A stretch of DNA of 28,212 bases from a virus. The notes beneath the pieces were generated by a model, which ran no database searches, was not told where the DNA came from, and saw only the letters and a list, made by a program, of their open reading frames with translations. Location of the stretch: the IMG/VR virus record IMGVR_UViG_3300020166_000088, positions 1 through 28,212 of that record; one strand, given 5' to 3'. The position numbers were made by a program, and so were the translations under genes. This document shows, piece by piece, positions 6,467 to 28,212 of this stretch (position 1 is the first letter of the stretch; every line of letters starts with the position of its first letter).

Positions 6467-6606
6467 TTTCGGTTATATTCTTTTATAAGGAACATTAGTA
6501 CTTGAGAATAAGATTTCCACCCTTCCTCTTTGCATTTTTCTTGAAATTTATGTAGCTCATCTACTTCTTCAGCTGGCACATAAAAAGTTTTATTTGTATA
6601 ACTCAT
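6463..6606 (-). CDS. Ribbon-helix-helix-like small protein (47 aa)
   Basis: An ORF from ATG 6606 to TGA 6463, joined to both neighbours by ATGA overlaps. The layout fits a minimal Arc/CopG-type ribbon-helix-helix: a short N-terminal strand (NKTFYVP), a first helix (AEEVDELHKFQEKCKEEG), a turn with Ser-Tyr-Ser (KSYSQ), and a second helix (VLMFLIKEYNRK). Such dimers bind operators, so it may regulate early genes. It is short but complete for the fold; no operator was identified. Confidence 0.6.
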   Translation of the reverse strand: MSYTNKTFYVPAEEVDELHKFQEKCKEEGWKSYSQVLMFLIKEYNRK

Positions 6607-6887
6607 AATTTATTTTTTATTAATTGTGTCATTTCTTTTTTTATTCTTTGTTCTTTTTTTTTATGTTCTTCAATACAATAAGATAACATATGCGGTAAAT
6701 CATTATATAATGTTTCTAAGTTCCAAACGATTGTTCCTTGTTCACATTCTATATGTAATTCGCCACTATCTTCCCAAAATGTATTTGTTTCGTGTACATA
6801 AATATGTTTATTATTTCCTAGAAGTTCTTTAAGTTCATTTTGCAACTTAATAACCTTGTCTCTTAAAATGTTATTATTTTTTTCCAT
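6603..6887 (-). CDS. Hypothetical early protein (94 aa)
   Basis: A 94-aa protein with an N-terminal leucine-spaced helix (ILRDKVIKLQNELKELLG), a central beta-type region (HIYVHETNTFWEDSGELHIE, EQGTIVWNLETL) and a C-terminal Lys/Glu-rich helix (EEHKKKEQRIKKEMTQL). It lies early in the operon and overlaps the RHH-like ORF by ATGA. No recognised family. Confidence 0.7.
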   Translation of the reverse strand: MEKNNNILRDKVIKLQNELKELLGNNKHIYVHETNTFWEDSGELHIECEQGTIVWNLETLYNDLPHMLSYCIEEHKKKEQRIKKEMTQLIKNKL

Positions 6888-6979
6888 AATGATAAATTTA
6901 ATAAAATAAATGTTGTTAACTTATATGCTATGTAAATCATCGCGGCAAACATAGTTCCTTCGTATATAAATTTTTTCAT
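6863..6979 (-). CDS. Small membrane peptide (38 aa)
   Basis: An ORF from ATG 6979 to TAA 6863. It starts 2 bases after the stop of the 97-aa gene and overlaps the 94-aa gene by 25 bases. The peptide (MKKFIYEGTMFAAMIYIAYK, then LTTFILLNLSLWKK) has one or two hydrophobic segments with basic ends, typical of a small inner-membrane protein. The tight fit supports it, but the long overlap and small size leave some doubt. Confidence 0.5.
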   Translation of the reverse strand: MKKFIYEGTMFAAMIYIAYKLTTFILLNLSLWKKIITF

Positions 6980-6981
6980 AA

Positions 6982-7275
6982 TTAAAAGTCTGCTATTATA
7001 AATGAAAAATCGTCAATGTGAATTACAGATGTGTAGTCAGATAAATCGTGTATATCTTTTATATAACTAAAATCTCCACCGTAATTATCTAATAACTCTC
7101 TAAGGCTTGAGTACTCTGTGTATTCTGTGCATATAGCTATTGGGTCAAATTCCATCCCCTCATCAACTTCTTCAAAGTATTCGTATAAAGCTCTTAACCC
7201 TTCAACTGAAAAGTTGTTTGGTCTTATTTCTAAAAAGCGATTTATAAATTGTGTTTCTGTTAGTGTGATTATCAT
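6982..7275 (-). CDS. Acidic first early protein (97 aa), function unknown
   Basis: The first gene after the early promoter. It encodes 97 residues, of which roughly a quarter are Asp or Glu and few are Lys or Arg. Recognisable segments are SVEGLRALYEYFEEVDEG, FDPIAICTEYTEYSSLREL, NYGGDFSYIKDI and the end SVIHIDDFSFIIADF. This layout (FDPIAI, then a VI..DD.SFII.DF end) recurs, as I recall, in many phage and plasmid proteins without known function. The high negative charge and immediate-early position are typical of DNA-mimic anti-restriction or host-inhibiting proteins, but this is inference only. Its start is about 20-25 bases after the predicted transcription start. Confidence 0.8.
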   Translation of the reverse strand: MIITLTETQFINRFLEIRPNNFSVEGLRALYEYFEEVDEGMEFDPIAICTEYTEYSSLRELLDNYGGDFSYIKDIHDLSDYTSVIHIDDFSFIIADF

Positions 7276-7301
7276 AATATTTGTTTTTAAGTTTGTTAGA
7301 A

Positions 7302-7309
7302 CAAATATA
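7302..7309 (-). promoter_or_regulatory. Early promoter, -7 element TATATTTG
   Basis: The minus strand reads TATATTTG, an exact match to the Bacteroidota -7 consensus TAnnTTTG, about 27 bases upstream of the first early ATG (7275). Transcription would begin near 7297. A clear TTTG at -33 is not seen; the upstream DNA is a TA/T-rich run. It lies just after a hairpin terminator, so it probably starts the early operon independently of the late transcript. Confidence 0.6.
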
Positions 7310-7335
7310 TTATAATATATTATAAATAAAAAACA

Positions 7336-7356
7336 TTTTAGAACTTTTTTCTAAAA
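7336..7356 (-). terminator. Hairpin terminator at the end of the late transcript
   Basis: A perfect inverted repeat with 8-bp arms (TTTTAGAA / TTCTAAAA) and a 5-base loop, followed on the minus strand by TGTTTTTTATTT. It lies 15 bases after the metallophosphoesterase gene and before the early promoter. The stem is AT-rich and therefore weak, but the following T run and the position support termination or attenuation. Confidence 0.5.
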
Positions 7357-7371
7357 AAATTATTCTACCCC

Positions 7372-8433
7372 TTAAAATAAATGTGTTATTCTGGCTACTT
7401 GGCCATTGTTCTTAGAGAAGATAAAACCTTCTATTGCTTGGTTATTAGAAGAAGTATAACCCATTTTATGATGCCAACTATCTGCTGGTGATGGACTACG
7501 TAAACTTTCTAAACTGCATCCAATTAAATCTTTACTCACTTTGTGATGTACGTGATGTGCAAACATATATCTGTATTTTGTTTCGCTCCATTCTTTACAC
7601 TCATCAGCCATTAATAAAGGTAATAAATCCCACTTTGCGCCATCTCCGTGTGTACTGCCAATTAAATTATTATAATAAGTATAATACTTTCTATGTTGTA
7701 AACTAATATCAAAAGTTATATTTTTACTATTTCTAAAGTATGTAGCAATAGTATCAGCCAAGCAAAAACCAGTTAAATAATCGTGGTTACTACTATTATA
7801 CACAACGTGTAAATCAGGATAGAAAGAAACTAATGTTTCAATAATATTTATATATAATCTTTTTGCAATATGGAAATGCTCAAAAAACATACCGTCAACA
7901 TCCTGAACCGTTCCTTTCGTAGTCTTTCCACCACTAGGAGTGTCAATATGCATTACATCATTACCTATACAAAGGACAATTTTATCTATATTAAAACCGT
8001 TACTTTTTTGTAGTATTCCATCAACTGCTTCAAGAGTTCTTTGAACTGCAATTTGTTTGTTATACTCTTCACCACTTACAAAAGATTTACATAATTTACC
8101 AATATGTATATCAGCTGGAGATATTAAAAGACAATGACCGTCATTTACTTTAGGTTTAACGACCTTTTGAAAGTTTGGTGCGTATTGTTTTAAGTCTGAC
8201 AGTAACTGTTGCTTAAACTCCTTTAAATCGTTTTTCTTAAAATTTGGATTTTTAAAATATAAACTGGCTTTTTTATTTTTTATCCAGCCACTATGAATAT
8301 CATTTGGATTTAATCCCTCAGCTTGTGCTTCTTGCTTTAATCTTCTATAGTCATTTATGATTTGCGCCTCATCTGAATTGAGTCTGTAGCGTGGATTACC
8401 TGAATCTTTCCACCTTTTTTTATGTTGTTTCAT
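7372..8433 (-). CDS. Calcineurin-like metallophosphoesterase
   Basis: A 353-aa protein. Residues 1-95 are a charged N-terminal region. Residues 100-353 carry the metallophosphoesterase motifs in order: ADIHIGK (Asp108, His110), CIGNDVMH (Asn158-Asp159), NSSNHDYL (Asn216-His217), STHGD (His262) and AHHVHHK (His293-297). These bind two metal ions and hydrolyse phosphodiesters; relatives include SbcD/Mre11-type nucleases and phage 2H/MPE enzymes. It is the last gene of the late block, after the lysis genes, with a short AT-rich spacer on each side. Likely substrates are DNA or nucleotides; sequence cannot decide. Confidence 0.85.
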   Translation of the reverse strand: MKQHKKRWKDSGNPRYRLNSDEAQIINDYRRLKQEAQAEGLNPNDIHSGWIKNKKASLYFKNPNFKKNDLKEFKQQLLSDLKQYAPNFQKVVKPKVNDGHCLLISPADIHIGKLCKSFVSGEEYNKQIAVQRTLEAVDGILQKSNGFNIDKIVLCIGNDVMHIDTPSGGKTTKGTVQDVDGMFFEHFHIAKRLYINIIETLVSFYPDLHVVYNSSNHDYLTGFCLADTIATYFRNSKNITFDISLQHRKYYTYYNNLIGSTHGDGAKWDLLPLLMADECKEWSETKYRYMFAHHVHHKVSKDLIGCSLESLRSPSPADSWHHKMGYTSSNNQAIEGFIFSKNNGQVARITHLF

Positions 8434-8461
8434 AAATCTAATTTACGAAAAAAAAATTAAA

Positions 8462-8902
8462 TTACTTTTTTGAGCTTGTACCGTAATAAAAAGCAAAGAT
8501 ATTCCCAATGACCACACCCTCAACCATCCCCATCAAATGAATGAATAGTTCGTTTTCTAAAACTTGCGGAATATATACGACTGCATAAACTATAAAAACA
8601 AAACAGAATAAACCAATAACACCAGTTAAATTCATCATCCAGTCATTAGCTCCAGATTTAGCCATTTCAACCTCTCTATTTCTAGCTGAATTTCGATCTT
8701 CAACCTCTAGCTTATACATCTCAACAACTTGTCTATGAAGTTCTTCTTTTTCTTGAGCAGTTAAATCAGGATCTTTAGAAATAATGTTTTTTAATATACC
8801 CATAGTGCCATTAGAAGGCAACACATCGCCAATAAGCTCTAATATTTTAGGTGCTTTCTCTTTTAGTAATAAACCTATTTTAGTATCTTTTAGCTTCTTC
8901 AT
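8462..8902 (-). CDS. Holin-like membrane protein (3TM/GTA-holin type)
   Basis: A 146-aa protein. The first half is helical and charged, ending in the box EVEDRNSARNREVEMAKSG, followed by DWMMNLTGVIGLFCFVFIVYAVVYI and a second hydrophobic segment (FIHLMGMVEGVVIGNIFAFYYG), with a Ser-Lys tail. This layout matches the GTA_holin_3TM-like proteins found in phage lysis cassettes. It would form the membrane lesion releasing the amidase. It is separated from the amidase gene only by the 38-aa ORF. Two clear membrane segments are seen rather than three. Holin versus a membrane-anchored structural protein cannot be settled from sequence. Confidence 0.65.
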   Translation of the reverse strand: MKKLKDTKIGLLLKEKAPKILELIGDVLPSNGTMGILKNIISKDPDLTAQEKEELHRQVVEMYKLEVEDRNSARNREVEMAKSGANDWMMNLTGVIGLFCFVFIVYAVVYIPQVLENELFIHLMGMVEGVVIGNIFAFYYGTSSKK

Positions 8903-21532: not shown

Positions 21533-21666
21533 TTCTTCATTCTTAATTGGTTTAAACCTTCTCTAATAGTCATTGGCACTTTGTTAATACCTAATGCTAT
21601 TCTTATATGTTTATCATATAATTTATTCTCCTTACAAAATTCTAATGCTTCTAATATTGTTTTCAA
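21529..21666 (-). CDS. 45-aa ORF with TTG start before the tape measure gene
   Basis: The ORF exactly fills the gap between the 742-aa tail gene and tape measure. TTG at 21666 overlaps the upstream stop (ATTGA), and its TGA forms ATGA with the tape-measure start. The peptide is helical and basic (KTILEALEFCKENKLYDKHI, then RIALGINKVPMTIREGLNQL). A stop lies seven codons upstream in frame, so no ATG start is available. It sits where other phages place a tail-assembly chaperone, but it is too short to be a recognised one. Moderate support from packing only. Confidence 0.5.
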   Translation of the reverse strand: MKTILEALEFCKENKLYDKHIRIALGINKVPMTIREGLNQLRMKK

Positions 21667-23891
21667 TTTGGTTCGTTTAATAGTTCAAAATTTGTTTCTC
21701 CACTTTGTAATTTAGTAGACATTTTATTTATTGTGTAAGCTCTTGTGCCAACTACAATTAAATCATCTAATGTTAAAGTCAATAAAACTTTTAAAGGCAA
21801 TACAGCAGAGAATTTGAATATCCTTGTTTTCTTGTTAAATACTCTTGTTATGTAATTAGTATAATAAGTTTGAAATAAGCTATTATTATTACCAGCATAA
21901 TCAGTTAGTGTGTAGGTGTTTATTTCACTACCAAAGTTTAAATTGTATGTAGGTGGTGTTGAGGATGTGCCTAATTCATTGCAAGCACTTGGAATCCAAT
22001 AATCATCTAAAGAAGAATTTGTTCCTGTTGGGCATAAAGCGCCATAAGTTTCAGGTCTTGTACTATCTAAAAAGTTAATTGATGTAGCTACATTGTTTTG
22101 ATAGATACCGTAAAACATTAAGGGTTGCCCAATTTCAGGACTTAATTCTGTATTTAAAAAACTACCAACTTGTACTGTAGTTAAAGCACTACTTGTTTTA
22201 TCTTGTAACCTTTCAAATAACATATGCTCAAAAGGAAGTTTAATTTGGTAAATACTTTTCTTACTAACATCAGTTACATAATTAAGTTCTCCATACTTTT
22301 GGTTATTTACTAATTGAAATTGCTCTGCTAAAATGCTCTTTGGTTCTGAGTATTCAAAATCTACTTCACTAAATGGTATTACATCACAAACAGTATGTTC
22401 ATCAGTTTTTACAAATTGTGTTATATCTTGAGTATCTCCACCAGCATAATAATTATCTAAAGTTTTAACTACTATCTCATTATTAAAATCAACATAAGCA
22501 GTTAGATTAAATTGTCTAAATAAACCATTTAAAAAATCTTTAATCTTAAGCTTTGGCATCTGCTCAGTAACAACAACTAATTTATCTTGTGGAGATAGTG
22601 TTGTTGAATTACTTGTAAATGTTCCACTCCAATTAAAACTTAATACAGTACCATCAAAATTATTAAAACTAAAATCTCTTGTAATTGTAAACTTTGATTG
22701 AAATTGAATTGAAGATTCTGTCATTAATCTACCTACAAAATCATTGCCATTAGGATTAAAAGAAACTAATGATGCTACATCTAAACCATTAGCACCACCA
22801 ATTGTTAATGTAACAGAACTTGTTCCACTTTTGTTTTCTACTTTAGCGAATGATTCCCAATTATTAGCACGTACTATTTCTAAACTATATTCAACTGCTG
22901 TAAACCCACTTGCTGGAGTTACTTCAAAAGTTATAGTAGTTACATCTGTATCTGGTCCAAGATTAGAGTTCCATTTATATATGCCAGTATTTAAAGTAAA
23001 GTAACCTGTGAATCCAGCAGTATCTGTTAGCTCTGTGCAATTAGCACCACTACAAGTATAAGTATCACTATTGCCAATCCAAGTGCCAGCAGTTGCCATT
23101 TTACCTTTTTCTCTATGTAGCCATAAATACAAATTAGTCATAGCAGCAGAGTCAAGAAATTCACCAGTTTTAAAAGTTATGTTGTATTGCTCTTCAATAG
23201 CTTTAATTATATTTTTAACTGTTACTGCTGGTTTTAAATCTTCTGGAACTACACCCCTTTGTTGATGGTGTGTTGTGTTAGTACTAATATTTAAACCATT
23301 GCTTAAATTAGCAGAACCATTTTGGTTATCATAAATATAGCTTTGTGAATGTGCTATTAATGGATATATTATTGCATCGTTATAAGCAACAGAATTAACA
23401 GTAAAATTTAAACCATTTTCTAAACCATCTTTTACATTAGTAACTGTTGCACTATGATTAAATTCATTAAGCCAAACTAAATCAGATAGTTCATCTTCAT
23501 TTATAGCGTTTTTAAAAGTTGTTGTTTCACCAAAGAATGTTACCTTATACATAGAAGGTTCTCCAAACTTCATTGCAACCTCATTTAATTGTATTTTACC
23601 AAATCTAAAATGTAAATGATTTAGCTCAATTCTTGCACTACAAAAAACACTTGAATCAAAACCATCTATATCTGGATTATACCAATGCTTAAAAATCTTA
23701 TTATTTGTTTTACTTGCTGGTAAATTAAAAGTCCTTGAATAATCTGTAAATATTTTTTCTATATCATTTACATCTTGAATAACCTGAGTTAATTCAATTA
23801 AATCTTCTTCCATTAAATCAACTCTAACAAAGTCTTGTGTAGTTGTTGTATTTCTTAACTGTGGCTGTATGTATAGAATAACTTTCTGCAC
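21663..23891 (-). CDS. Large tail/tip protein (742 aa)
   Basis: A 742-aa protein. Its N-terminus (VRVDLMEEDLIELTQVIQDV, then DYSRTFNLPASKTNNKIFKHWYN) matches a domain I recall from flavobacterial phage tail proteins, where it caps a conserved tail-tip or baseplate-like component. The middle (about 250-420) is beta-rich with a CSGANCTELTD segment, and the C-terminal part contains LKIKDFLNGLFRQFNLTAYV and VGTRAYTINKMSTKLQSGE. It probably forms part of the tail tip or hub. It overlaps the preceding 376-aa gene by one base. It precedes rather than follows tape measure, unlike lambda. Confidence 0.6.
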   Translation of the reverse strand: MQKVILYIQPQLRNTTTTQDFVRVDLMEEDLIELTQVIQDVNDIEKIFTDYSRTFNLPASKTNNKIFKHWYNPDIDGFDSSVFCSARIELNHLHFRFGKIQLNEVAMKFGEPSMYKVTFFGETTTFKNAINEDELSDLVWLNEFNHSATVTNVKDGLENGLNFTVNSVAYNDAIIYPLIAHSQSYIYDNQNGSANLSNGLNISTNTTHHQQRGVVPEDLKPAVTVKNIIKAIEEQYNITFKTGEFLDSAAMTNLYLWLHREKGKMATAGTWIGNSDTYTCSGANCTELTDTAGFTGYFTLNTGIYKWNSNLGPDTDVTTITFEVTPASGFTAVEYSLEIVRANNWESFAKVENKSGTSSVTLTIGGANGLDVASLVSFNPNGNDFVGRLMTESSIQFQSKFTITRDFSFNNFDGTVLSFNWSGTFTSNSTTLSPQDKLVVVTEQMPKLKIKDFLNGLFRQFNLTAYVDFNNEIVVKTLDNYYAGGDTQDITQFVKTDEHTVCDVIPFSEVDFEYSEPKSILAEQFQLVNNQKYGELNYVTDVSKKSIYQIKLPFEHMLFERLQDKTSSALTTVQVGSFLNTELSPEIGQPLMFYGIYQNNVATSINFLDSTRPETYGALCPTGTNSSLDDYWIPSACNELGTSSTPPTYNLNFGSEINTYTLTDYAGNNNSLFQTYYTNYITRVFNKKTRIFKFSAVLPLKVLLTLTLDDLIVVGTRAYTINKMSTKLQSGETNFELLNEPN

Positions 23892-25021
23892 TATCTAATG
23901 TTGTTTACTAAACTGAATGATTTTTCAAAACTCATTGTGTAATTAATTAACCTATCGTTTAATCCTGTCTTTTTAGCAAAGGAGCTTTCTTTTAAATTAA
24001 CTGGAAATATGTTAGCACTTGAATCTGTTAGCCATATGTATTCACTAACCATCAACTCCTCAAAATATGGATTCATTAATTCGTTAACAAAACCAGTATT
24101 TAAAACAATTGATTCTGTAGCATTAGCATTAAATGTTTTCTTTGCGTGTGCAGTAGTTGAGTAAGTATTAAATGTTAATGATTCTTGGCAAGCATCACCA
24201 GGTGTTTCAGGTGGGTCTAATTGAACAGCTCTTGCTTCAAAAATACTTGCATTAAAATTTTCTCTTGTTGCATCTAAACTTTCTGTTGATTTCTTAAAGA
24301 AGAATAAATCTTGTAAAGCTCCCCATCTATTTACAAACGTAATTTTGTTAACTGGATACTTGCATTCTTCTACTTGTTCTAAAGTTATTGTAGTAGTGCT
24401 TCCACTATCATAAGTTATTAAAGCATTATCTAAAAAAGTACCAGCAGTAAATAAAGCAAATTGTATCTTTTGGTTTTGGTTGCCGTTGTCTGTAAAAGTA
24501 TCTGTCTCTCTTACGCTTGTACCGTTTCTCCATTCAACTTGCGTAACCCTTTCTACATTTACTGGTATTGTAATTGTGCTTCCTTTATGATTTTGAATGT
24601 AATTACTACTTAGCATTGCAATAGGTTCTGTTGTGTAGTTTACACCTTCTTTAAATTTATTGAATCCTTCTTGAGCTAAGTAAGTGTTTGTAGTTACAGA
24701 ACCAATTACAGTACCATCTGATTGTCTTGCTGATGTTGCTACAGTTACCCAAATAGAACTTTTAGCAGCAGCATAAGTACCAGTAAATATTTGTTCTATA
24801 TGGTCATTAACTATTTCGCTAATGTCAAATGAAACAGAATTTTCAGCTCCTAATGGTTTCTTTTGTAGTGAGTAAGTTGCATATAAATCATCACATATTT
24901 CAGTTGAAGAACTCAAACCACCAAATACAGTTATGTTTATTTGAAAATAACTAAGGTTAGCATCTGCTTCTTGTGGTGTTCTTATAAAAAATGGGCTTCT
25001 TGTTCTAATAATTGTACTCAT
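23891..25021 (-). CDS. Tail structural protein (376 aa), distal-tail-like
   Basis: A 376-aa beta-rich protein (SPFFIRTPQEADANLSYFQI, then STEICDDLYATYSLQ). A distinctive segment YPVNKITFVNRWGALQDLFFFKK at about 230-252 resembles a conserved NKFGGLQDLWFF motif of flavobacterial phage tail proteins. The remainder (FVNELMNPYFEELMVSEYIW, then INYTMSFEKSFSLVNNIR) alternates strands and helices. It is adjacent to the 742-aa tail protein and probably assembles with it. It could be a distal tail or an adhesion-ring component; the role is inferred from position. Confidence 0.6.
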   Translation of the reverse strand: MSTIIRTRSPFFIRTPQEADANLSYFQINITVFGGLSSSTEICDDLYATYSLQKKPLGAENSVSFDISEIVNDHIEQIFTGTYAAAKSSIWVTVATSARQSDGTVIGSVTTNTYLAQEGFNKFKEGVNYTTEPIAMLSSNYIQNHKGSTITIPVNVERVTQVEWRNGTSVRETDTFTDNGNQNQKIQFALFTAGTFLDNALITYDSGSTTTITLEQVEECKYPVNKITFVNRWGALQDLFFFKKSTESLDATRENFNASIFEARAVQLDPPETPGDACQESLTFNTYSTTAHAKKTFNANATESIVLNTGFVNELMNPYFEELMVSEYIWLTDSSANIFPVNLKESSFAKKTGLNDRLINYTMSFEKSFSLVNNIR

Positions 25022-25497
25022 TGTAAATCTAATTTATCTTCTAAATAACCAGCAACTATTTCATCTCCATATAAATCTAAACCACGTTCAAACGGTTTAG
25101 TAAAAAATAATGTTGCTCTAATACCTTTGTTTTTAATACTTCTTGCAATTAAAAAATTTAATGATTGCCTACTAACAAACCTACCTTGTTTATCTCTTGG
25201 TGCAATACCTTTTCTAATACTCCACTTGTCAAATACAGAACTTGGTGGTTGTTTAGTAGTGTATTTAAATGGACTTGCTGAGCTTTCAGGATATGTAGAT
25301 TTAGAACCTTTTACACCTTTATCTATAAACTCGCCATACTTCTCGCTAAGAAACGAAATCTTATCTCCTTGTATTCTATACTCTAAACTATTATATAATT
25401 GCTTAGAAGCGTTGTTTTTCTTTTTAGTTAGGTTGCTCCTTGACTGTTGAATAACATACTTAGCGTATTTCTCTAATGCCTTTTTAAATTCACTCAT
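25018..25497 (-). CDS. HK97 gp10-like neck / tail completion protein
   Basis: A 159-aa protein with an N-terminal amphipathic helix (FKKALEKYAKYVIQQSRSNL), the segment LYNSLEYRIQGDKISFLSEK, and YGEFIDKGVKGSKSTYP, which matches the gp10-type head-tail joining pattern (strand then Y-x-x-F-I-D-x-G). Its C-terminal half is basic and suits contact with DNA or the tail. It is joined by an ATGA overlap to the 376-aa gene and by one base to the 151-aa gene. It probably helps join head and tail. Confidence 0.6.
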   Translation of the reverse strand: MSEFKKALEKYAKYVIQQSRSNLTKKKNNASKQLYNSLEYRIQGDKISFLSEKYGEFIDKGVKGSKSTYPESSASPFKYTTKQPPSSVFDKWSIRKGIAPRDKQGRFVSRQSLNFLIARSIKNKGIRATLFFTKPFERGLDLYGDEIVAGYLEDKLDLQ

Positions 25498-25952
25498 TAG
25501 CAGTAAGTCATTTCATCGTTTGTACCAGCATCAAAAGTAACTGCCCAACCAGCAAGCATATTATCAAACCTTTCTGTGAACGGTTCACAAGTAGCTGGAT
25601 TAATTAATTCAAATTTATCTTTATATAAATCACTCTTTTGTAAAACTCTAATAACCCTTGTTGCTAATGCTAACTGAGTGTTTAATATATCTTGCCTATT
25701 GTCATTACCTCTATATAAATCTGTTACTTGTTCATTGCTAATATCTACTAAATCCATAAAGAAGATAGTAATATTAAATGTTACATAATTGTTATTTATT
25801 GTACTATTATTAACCATCACGTGAGATAGTGGAAACAAGCTCTGCTTCTTTAAATCAATATCAGCTATATCACCAAAAGTTATTTCGTTGTTAAATGGTT
25901 CTGCAACAATTACTTCTTTTATTTTATCTATTATATTGTAAAAACTGTTCAT
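25497..25952 (-). CDS. Tail-terminator-like protein (151 aa)
   Basis: A 151-aa protein with an N-terminal helix (NIIDKIKEVIVAEPFNNEI), a strand-rich middle (HVMVNNSTINNNYVTFNITI), the helix RQDILNTQLALATRVIRVLQ, and the end MLAGWAVTFDAGTNDEMTYC. The alpha/beta order and the neighbours (gp10-like and tail proteins) fit a tail terminator that caps the tail tube. It overlaps the neighbours by 1 to 4 bases. The assignment is mostly contextual. Confidence 0.5.
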   Translation of the reverse strand: MNSFYNIIDKIKEVIVAEPFNNEITFGDIADIDLKKQSLFPLSHVMVNNSTINNNYVTFNITIFFMDLVDISNEQVTDLYRGNDNRQDILNTQLALATRVIRVLQKSDLYKDKFELINPATCEPFTERFDNMLAGWAVTFDAGTNDEMTYC

Positions 25953-26215
25953 ACTACTTTTATATATCTTGGAGTGTGTACTCCTAAATCTTGATTAATA
26001 AATTCATCTAAGTCATCAATAGCATTATCAAAATCCATATTATCACGCTGTATTAATAAATCTAAACATATCCAATAATCATATATTGCTTGTACTGGAT
26101 TGTTAGCTGTAATACCTAAAAATGCTTCTTCAAAACCATCAACTAAAATAATGTGTTCATTCTCAATTAATAAATCTCGTTCTGTTAATTCTTCTAATAT
26201 ATCATCCTTTGTCAT
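25949..26215 (-). CDS. Small conserved phage protein (88 aa), function unknown
   Basis: An 88-aa acidic protein: ILEELTERDLLIENEHIILV, DGFEEAFLGITANNPVQAIY, DYWICLDLLIQRDNM, then FDNAIDDLDEFINQDLG. The GFEEAFxG / AxYxYxKxxExL layout is common in phages and plasmids, as I recall, usually outside the structural genes. Here it lies inside the neck cluster. It is coupled by ATGA on both sides. Role unknown. Confidence 0.75.
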   Translation of the reverse strand: MTKDDILEELTERDLLIENEHIILVDGFEEAFLGITANNPVQAIYDYWICLDLLIQRDNMDFDNAIDDLDEFINQDLGVHTPRYIKVV

Positions 26216-26280
26216 CGTTGGCTTCTTTTTAATATTTGTTGTTCTAATTCATATTTATCTTTTTCAAATGCTAAGTGCAT
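26212..26280 (-). CDS. 22-aa ORF bridging two structural genes
   Basis: ATG at 26280 shares a TAATG junction with the 223-aa gene stop, and the TGA at 26212 shares ATGA with the 88-aa gene start. The 22-residue peptide is one charged helix (MHLAFEKDKYELEQQILKRS then QR). Perfect overlap at both ends suggests it is translated, perhaps to carry ribosomes across. No family; could also be a chance ORF used only for coupling. Confidence 0.45.
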   Translation of the reverse strand: MHLAFEKDKYELEQQILKRSQR

Positions 26281-26951
26281 TAAACAAGTGTGGAGTTTTG
26301 ATTTGGTAATTTCATTGTATTTGAGAATGTCTCCATTAGTAAGTCCGTAGATAGATTGATACCAGCCCCATTTAGCAGAGAATCCTGCAGATGCTGAGGC
26401 AGCTCTATCTCCTTCTGAGTTGCTAAATAATTCAGGATAGTTTTCTGTAATTCGTTCTTTAAACTGTAAAAAAAAACAAGCGAACCAAATACAACATCTA
26501 AAGTAACTTCTGTCATATCGTACTTTTCAGCACTTTCATAATCTTCTATTAAATACTGTTTCTTCTTCTTGTAGGTTATTGGTCTATATAAAACGCCAAT
26601 TGCTTTATTCATAAGCTCCCAGTCTGCAAGGTATGTATCAAGATCAACGTATTCACCAAAAGAAATATCATCCAGCTTAGGTATAAAACCAAATTCTTTA
26701 TCATTTATTGTAAACCTATCTATAAACTTAGGTTCGTTATTAAATAGTTTTGTAAGTTCTTCGCAGATGTTGTTTATATCAGATGCTTTAATTTGTAATA
26801 CTTGCTTTAGTGGTATATTACAAAATATCTCTACCATCTTTTGTTGTAAGAATGAATCCAGTTCTTTACCATCAGCAATCTTTAACCACTTTTGGTATTG
26901 CTTTAAAGTAACTTCATTAAGTGTTTCTGGTATGTTAATAGTTAGTTTCAT
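26280..26951 (-). CDS. Conserved phage protein (223 aa), tail-assembly-chaperone-like candidate
   Basis: A 223-aa protein: NIPETLNEVTLKQYQKWLKI, FCNIPLKQVLQIKASDINNI, RFTINDKEFGFIPKLDDISF, then GEYVDLDTYLADWELMNKAI and GVLYRPITYKKKKQYLIEDY. The order of segments (VTLKQYQ, FCNIP, FGFIPxLDDISFGEYxDL, AIGVLYRPI) recurs in flavobacterial phages, as I recall, at the start of the tail module. The position before neck and tail genes suggests a tail-assembly chaperone or adaptor, but no programmed frameshift site was identified. It is the first gene after the intergenic gap that holds the plus-strand element. Confidence 0.6.
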   Translation of the reverse strand: MKLTINIPETLNEVTLKQYQKWLKIADGKELDSFLQQKMVEIFCNIPLKQVLQIKASDINNICEELTKLFNNEPKFIDRFTINDKEFGFIPKLDDISFGEYVDLDTYLADWELMNKAIGVLYRPITYKKKKQYLIEDYESAEKYDMTEVTLDVVFGSLVFFYSLKNELQKTILNYLATQKEIELPQHLQDSLLNGAGINLSTDLLMETFSNTMKLPNQNSTLV

Positions 26952-27025
26952 TTATTTATAAACGTTTTAATTAGTGAATCGTTATATACGAATGTAATAA
27001 AATTTTTAAAACTAATATTTTTTTG

Positions 27026-27033
27026 TATCTTTG
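27026..27033 (+). promoter_or_regulatory. Plus-strand promoter, -7 element TATCTTTG
   Basis: TATCTTTG is an exact match to the Bacteroidota TAnnTTTG -7 consensus, in the only sizeable gap of the right half, on the strand opposite to every gene. It is preceded by an A/T-rich run, but without an obvious TTTG at -33. Start of transcription would be near 27037-27040. It is followed within about 60 bases by a terminator. Confidence 0.55.
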
Positions 27034-27037
27034 AAGT

Positions 27038-27090
27038 GTTCAGTACTTGAAGGGTTGTTGTTTATGTTTTCATATCTTCAGCCCTTTTTT
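27038..27090 (+). ncRNA. Candidate small plus-strand RNA
   Basis: Between the TATCTTTG promoter element and a terminator is a transcript of about 50 bases with no meaningful ORF. It is mostly the terminator hairpin, whose loop contains a further 4-bp stem (TATG / CATA, loop TTTT). A possible 5' hairpin (AAGTG / TACTT, loop TTCAG) begins at 27034 and may be only partly transcribed. It lies antisense to the gap just past the terminase stop. No known RNA family was recognised. Confidence 0.45.
27050..27090 (+). terminator. Rho-independent terminator, plus strand
   Basis: AAGGGTTG pairs with CAGCCCTT (8 bp with one G-T wobble), enclosing a 21-base loop region, followed by a run of six Ts at 27085-27090. 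Only the plus strand has the T run after the stem; read on the minus strand the stem would have a C-A mismatch and no T tract. It ends 2 bases before the complement of the terminase stop codon, so it would protect the terminase gene from opposing transcription. Confidence 0.65.
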
Positions 27091-27092
27091 AT

Positions 27093-28212
27093 TTAATATA
27101 AATGATACTCCCCTAAATTCGGGTTCTGTAATTGATAACTTACTGCATACCTCAACGCATCAATAGCGTGATTCCAATTATCAGATGGAGTCTGGCTTTT
27201 CTTTTCTAACCAAACATAATTGTTAAGTTCCTTTATTAAATCTGTACTATCTGGGTGAATAATTAAATCATAGTCTTGTAACAAGCTAATCCCATAAGTA
27301 ACGCTGCCCTGACCTTTAATGGCTGGAACTACTGAACAATCTCTGCTTAATTCATTGATTAATCTAGGTTCTGCTGAATCACCTACAATTAAATTATCTT
27401 CTGCAAACTTTTTATTAAGTGTTGATATATCGCTTGTAGTTAACTTAGTTTGATAGAAACACAATTTAACATATATAATCTTTTTTTCTTTGTCTATACT
27501 TGTCTTAACCAATGTTGAAGGGTCATTACTAAACCCATAATCTTGTCCAAATACAACTTTACCTACTTCTTTAAATTCGCCTAAACTCCAGTTGCTAAAT
27601 ATAACTCCTTCAGCTTTTTCTAACCAAGCACCCTCAATAGTGTGTTTATATCTTTGAGGCCTGCGTTCTTTCATTTCTTTAATTCTATTTAAATAACTTT
27701 GTGAAAGATGTTCTATATTATCTAAGTATGTAGAATGACAATAAGTTGTTTCTCCTTTTATTCCAGAGTAACCAGCTTGCACTCCAGCACCTTCATAAAA
27801 CCTTTGGTAAATCCAATGCTCTTTTGTTGAGGGGTTCATAACCATTACAACCCTATTCTTTGCTCCCTTTTGTCTAACTGAAAAATCTATCTTGTCAAAT
27901 ATATCCTCATCAACCATTTCTTCAGCTTCATCTATTATCCAAGTTGTTATACCTTGTAGTGATTTAAGGTTTGCTGTTTGATCTCCTGAGCTTGTTCTTA
28001 TACCCCTAAATAAAATCTTACTTCCAGTTAATAGATTAGTAATTTCGTTGCTGGTGATATGGAAAAAACTTTCCCAACCCATTAACTCAATCTTTTCTTT
28101 AAATTCTGGTATAATAGAAATAGAAGCTGATTTAAGAGTGTACCTTGTAAATAGTATCTTATGTTGGCATTTATTATCTAATGATAAAATTAAAGTGTTT
28201 AAAGCAACTGCA
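27093..28212 (-). CDS. terL: Terminase large subunit, N-terminus cut by window edge
   Basis: The frame stays open to the right edge: 43 residues precede the first ATG at 28082, beginning AVALNTLILSLDNKCQHKIL, the segment expected just after the Walker A loop, which therefore lies outside. Visible motifs are LFRGIRTSSGDQT, Walker B (TTWIIDEAEEMVDED), the coupling segment VVMVMNPSTKEHWIYQRF, and the RNase-H-like nuclease: FGQDYGFSNDPSTL, IVGDSAEPRLINEL and NHAIDALRYAV. The enzyme drives DNA into proheads and cuts concatemers. The layout matches PBSX-like / Terminase_3-type proteins. No small subunit is in the window; it is probably just beyond the edge. Confidence 0.92.
   Translation of the reverse strand, partial: AVALNTLILSLDNKCQHKILFTRYTLKSASISIIPEFKEKIELMGWESFFHITSNEITNLLTGSKILFRGIRTSSGDQTANLKSLQGITTWIIDEAEEMVDEDIFDKIDFSVRQKGAKNRVVMVMNPSTKEHWIYQRFYEGAGVQAGYSGIKGETTYCHSTYLDNIEHLSQSYLNRIKEMKERRPQRYKHTIEGAWLEKAEGVIFSNWSLGEFKEVGKVVFGQDYGFSNDPSTLVKTSIDKEKKIIYVKLCFYQTKLTTSDISTLNKKFAEDNLIVGDSAEPRLINELSRDCSVVPAIKGQGSVTYGISLLQDYDLIIHPDSTDLIKELNNYVWLEKKSQTPSDNWNHAIDALRYAVSYQLQNPNLGEYHLY

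Follow-up and report, generated by a model that had tools for sequence, protein, structure and literature searches.

A putative plus-strand promoter-terminator unit beside terL in a flavobacterial phage, and the variable junction in which it lies

Why should a phage whose sizeable genes all lie on the minus strand carry a compact pair of transcription signals pointing the other way? The question is raised by the window analyzed here, a stretch of 28,212 nucleotides that makes up positions 1 to 28,212 of IMG/VR record IMGVR_UViG_3300020166_000088. In the 141 bp of noncoding DNA that separate terL from the next gene, an exact match to TAnnTTTG (TATCTTTG, 27026-27033, +) is followed on the same strand by a hairpin with a T6 run (27049-27090, +). 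The first-pass annotation had pointed out this arrangement against minus-strand genes, with nothing coding between promoter and terminator, and both observations hold, the stem being 9 bp long. The unit is thus real as a sequence feature, and what has to be decided is what, if anything, it makes, and whether it is peculiar to this phage.

TAnnTTTG is the -7 consensus in Bacteroides and Flavobacterium (PMC7366714, PMC9723704). In F. psychrophilum the -7 box occupies -12 to -5 (PMC9723704), which places the predicted start at 27038 and gives a predicted RNA of about 53 nt (27038-27090, +). The element is preceded by the T-tract AATATTTTTTTG, and no -33 TTG/TTTG element is found 17-21 nt upstream of it; since the -33 element reported for Bacteroides was not identifiable in Flavobacterium johnsoniae (PMC7366714), we treat it as optional for flavobacterial hosts. 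The predicted RNA would begin with an 11-nt unpaired 5′ end, GTTCAGTACTT, and continue into an intrinsic-terminator-like hairpin whose arms, GAAGGGTTG (27049-27057) and CAGCCCTTT (27079-27087), form 9 bp with one internal and one closing G-U pair around a 21-nt loop that holds a small inner stem. Two bases separate the T6 run (27085-27090) from the complement of the terL stop codon. At -14.5 kcal/mol, hairpin and T6 together constitute the strongest plus-strand terminator-like site in the window, one that a simple terminator scan overlooks because the loop is longer than 8. Folding gives -15.8 kcal/mol (z -4.5) for the plus strand as against -7.4 (z -1.8) for the minus, or gene, strand, and because this asymmetry comes from G-U pairs, the plus strand appears to be the one that matters. 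By itself, the predicted RNA folds at -15.0 kcal/mol; a small 5′ stem (27034-27048) seen in the fold of a longer plus-strand stretch would be cut by a start at 27038. The only ATG-started frame in this RNA has 10 codons and a stop beyond the T-tract, which means that the RNA does not serve as a message.

How readily could such a unit arise in AT-rich sequence? The promoter motif alone is not rare: it occurs 40 times in the window, with 53 expected, and 29.5% of shuffled gaps contain it on some strand. A TAnnTTTG-to-terminator pair on one strand is found just once when both strands of the window are scanned, and shuffles of the 141-bp gap produced such a pair in 2 of 600 cases and a terminator of -14 or better in none of 600. 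When the whole window was shuffled, a unit at least this strong appeared in 7 of 200 trials, corresponding to a look-elsewhere chance of about 3-4% before the intergenic position is counted.

The unit is flanked by genes of two operons. Domain matches (Terminase_3, Terminase_3C) identify terL, the large terminase, at 27093-28211 (-), with its 5′ end outside the window; the first gene of the next operon (26280-26951, -) encodes a 223-aa protein of unknown function that matches phrog_32199. Immediately upstream of the latter lies a leader (GTATATAACGATTC...CGTTTATA; 26952-26988, -), the sole part of the gap that is conserved across close relatives, and next to it a degenerate gene-strand -7 element, TACATTCG (26989-26996, -), at the place where relatives with hairpin A, described below, have TATATTTG. 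No gene-strand terminator is recognizable between terL and the next operon in this gap. Elsewhere in the window, an ECF-sigma-like protein (783-1292, -; TIGR02937, E 4.7e-5, below the curated cut-off) contains within its frame, at 1078-1131, a copy of the leader of the 26280-26951 gene with 80% identity over 55 nt. Both copies recur in dozens of relatives; the protein and the repeated sequence may be a phage sigma factor together with its own promoter or operator. Another contig, L163, matches the window with 100% identity over 21633-28212 and 91% over 2-1852; its positions 6580-8657 fill about 2.1 kb absent between the two ends of the window, for a genome of about 30.3 kb.

Among named phages, those with the closest terL genes infect marine and other flavobacteria, and IMG/VR holds many relatives of the window's phage. 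The unit itself is carried by a single genotype, comprising the window and two IMG/VR contigs that are identical there. L004, of the same genotype, differs from the window only at 23628-24205, so variation within the genotype is uninformative on the unit. The closest other phages (L006, L010 and L041; terL 93-97% identical) lack it, their gap being 97 bp long, and it was not found in any of the remaining relatives outside the genotype. Conservation of stem and promoter among relatives had been set in advance as a test; because the closest relatives lack the unit, the outcome speaks mostly against a conserved function. One partial counterpart exists. In L096 (terL 84% identical) a second antisense pair of a promoter-like element and a terminator occupies the same place with a different stem: a similar T-tract precedes TATATTAG, which has one promoter mismatch, followed by the arms AAGGGGATTC/GAGTTCCCTT and T6. 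It folds at -13.8 on the plus strand versus -6.1 on the minus, and its terminator abuts the terL stop, a configuration present in 2 of 176 distinct terL ends (the window and L096). On the strength of two sequences, the L096 unit is analogous to that of the window and not clearly homologous.

Wider searches returned no homologue. Besides the same genotype, exact 17-mers of the unit had two unrelated coding matches in IMG/VR and 16 scattered matches in GTDB genomes, of which the three from Bacteroidota that we viewed lacked such a unit. Searches with blastn in phages and plasmids gave chance-level matches, and none was detected in 397 Flavobacteriaceae genomes, a weak test that had no positive control. 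Genome contigs contained no terL relatives, and Rfam matched the window solely with chance-level eukaryotic families, elsewhere in the stretch.

What relatives have in place of the unit proved more interesting than the unit, and went beyond the view of the first-pass annotation: the gap is a slot that holds other cassettes, on the gene strand. Its length after terL varies from 31 to 1543 bp among relatives, and 73 such gaps contain 39 gene-strand promoter-RNA-terminator units, which are not independent events because the relatives share ancestry. For 40 gaps that were also shuffled, 33 gene-strand cassettes were observed versus 0.2 expected. Cassette A ends in a hairpin, AAAGTAGGTA-GTCGGCAAAAGAGCGT-TACCTACTTT, with a T-tract, followed directly by TATATTTG of the next operon; the hairpin that defines it is GGTA-GTCGGCAAAAGAGCGT-TACC, on the gene strand ahead of that operon. 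In the stem, 3 pairs contain 14 double-changed cells, pairing is kept in 98.6% of cells, and no shuffle reached as high a covariation score. An intact TAnnTTTG is present in all 51 gaps with hairpin A and in none of the 11 without, which, the window included, have TAnnTTCG or GTTTCG in its stead. The window itself contains no match to cassette A at up to 3 mismatches, and none by model R1. Cassette B (GAGGCAGCCGA...AGCGTAAGTCCTC plus a terminator) is a weaker case, with one pair showing a double change. Neither cassette had an Rfam match in the eleven related loci searched, and we found no published name for either.

Several observations on the contents of these gaps stand by themselves. The covarying hairpin A, joined to the next operon's promoter, occurs in L016, L043, L034, L049 and about 50 other loci, and was not found in 199 Flavobacteriaceae genomes. 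Element B, which is RNA-like, has the form GAG(G/C)CAGCCGA-N-AGCGTAAGT(C/G)CTC and usually precedes a terminator (L009, L012, L043, L065, L171 and others); in L065 its apical part is swapped for a small stem. Directly after the terL stop, in L007, L016, L022, L055 and others, there is on the gene strand a GCTTAAG hairpin and then the purine run GATAAGATAAGAAAAGATAAGATA, a combination absent from the window.

The flanks of the slot bear on how its contents change. In L005 and L043 the next gene is 97-98% identical while terL is only 73% identical, which marks the gap as a recombination junction; in Nonlabens phage P12024S, a more distant isolate, terL and the next gene touch and there is no gap. 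We tentatively propose, at somewhat less than even confidence, that in this marine flavobacterial phage lineage the terL/neck junction serves as a swap slot in which one small noncoding RNA gene can take the place of another, and that autonomous promoter-RNA-terminator cassettes (A, B and the rare antisense type) are exchanged there by recombination between terminase and neck regions, as other phages swap accessory protein genes. Cassettes A and B share with the window's unit the slot between terL and the next operon and the promoter-RNA-terminator design; they differ from it in lying on the opposite strand and in having no sequence relation to it, and cassette A further differs in its fusion to the next operon's promoter and in its covarying stem.

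The design is also recurrent beyond this lineage. The pattern TTGTAnnTTTG, a short stretch, GAAGGG and CCCTTTTTT was found at 22 loci in IMG/VR, and the window's unit represents a single instance of this recurrent design; the loci form a few groups whose RNA sequences are unrelated, and those inspected are intergenic or nearly so and mostly on the gene strand. These phage units (L342-L364) resemble the window's in their T-rich TTGTAnnTTTG start, their GAAGGG/CCCTTTTTT end and their shortness, measuring 77-88 nt from element to element, but they contain different RNAs, occupy other genomic places and, in the inspected cases, mostly follow the gene strand. Among them, a 77-nt promoter-terminator unit is situated amid the structural genes of another phage group (L343, L344, L348, L350, L361 and others); two sequence variants of it exist, with terminator stems that differ yet pair, and another TATCTTTG directly follows it.

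The nearest known systems are bacterial. Bacteroidota intergenic sRNAs, such as GibS of B. thetaiotaomicron (PMC7366714) and Rfp18 of F. psychrophilum (PMC9723704), combine the same kind of sigma-A promoter with an intrinsic terminator on one strand, and, like the window's unit, they are noncoding between these signals and have an unpaired 5′ stretch ahead of the terminator hairpin. In B. thetaiotaomicron, 8 of 9 Northern-validated intergenic sRNAs have a start site and an intrinsic terminator, and 27 of 49 high-confidence sRNAs are strain-specific (PMC7366714). Of the features that characterize this class, the window's unit has the -7 element, the same-strand terminator and the noncoding interval, and lacks the -33 element, which is optional, and conservation, which is supporting but not required. 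It departs from the bacterial examples in being phage-borne, shorter (about 53 nt), not conserved and antisense to the neighboring operons, and in being known from sequence alone.

Taken together, these data lead us to favor, with modest confidence, the reading that the unit encodes an accessory small RNA of about 53 nt, on the strand opposite to all phage genes and antisense to the junction between terL and the neck genes. The earlier suggestion of a small phage RNA of about 50 bases is therefore retained as the best reading, encouraged by the strand-specific fold and the L096 unit and tempered by the absence of the unit from the closest relatives. We infer that the unit is transcribed: the host's RNA polymerase, carrying its primary sigma factor, would start at about 27038 from TATCTTTG, and the transcript would end at the hairpin and T6 just before terL. 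The RNA would most likely act by pairing over its full length with the phage's own late mRNA, at the point where terL gives way to the neck genes; because no recognizable gene-strand terminator separates terL from the next operon, a read-through transcript would hold the exact complement of the whole RNA. As a perfect cis-antisense, the pairing could trigger cleavage at the junction or hinder read-through. The suggested control of terL or neck genes gains no support as an effect in trans: among 41 phage gene start regions the best target scored -22.9 against a shuffled mean of -24.9, and none beats chance. Nor does anything speak for a role in packaging, and no specific part in terL regulation is supported.

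The main rival holds that the terminator alone matters, as a guard against stray plus-strand transcription running antisense into terL, and that the promoter is incidental. The distance of just 2 bases between the T-tract and the complement of the terL stop fits this view, as do the terminator of L096, which likewise abuts terL behind an imperfect promoter, and the frequency with which shuffled gaps contain TAnnTTTG. We nevertheless consider it unlikely, as an antisense terminator at the stop in only 2 of 176 distinct terL ends indicates that terL does not generally need one, and this reading does not account for an exact -7 element at a fitting distance. Chance comes next and is slightly less probable: an AT-rich gap with T-tracts may simply have yielded a -7 match and a hairpin. 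That the unit is private to one genotype, that TATCTTTG is one of 40 such motifs in the window and that about 3.5% of whole-window shuffles do as well all speak for it; the 2 of 600 gap shuffles with a pair, the absence of a -14 terminator from all 600, the strand-specific fold through G-U pairs and the second such unit at this position in L096 argue against it.

Two further readings are both highly improbable. That the unit works as DNA in packaging or recombination, as a cos/pac-like site or a junction sequence, is suggested by the adjacency to terL and by the gap being a recombination junction, but a packaging site should be conserved and the unit is not, even where terL is 97% identical; what is conserved in the gap is the leader. 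The last and least probable, a minus-strand terminator of the terL transcript, would suit a position at the 3′ end of terL in a gap where relatives have gene-strand terminators, and is already contradicted by an internal A-C mismatch in the minus-strand stem, its weak fold (-7.4, z -1.8) and the lack of a T-tract after it.

Small RNAs of Bacteroidota phages are hardly known, and our literature search for phage sRNAs at terL returned nothing relevant. Against this background the predicted antisense RNA offers one precise, testable candidate. If the proposal for the junction is true, the slot, with a covarying cassette that has no counterpart in Rfam, would show that phages trade accessory cargo in the form of RNA genes at one fixed junction.
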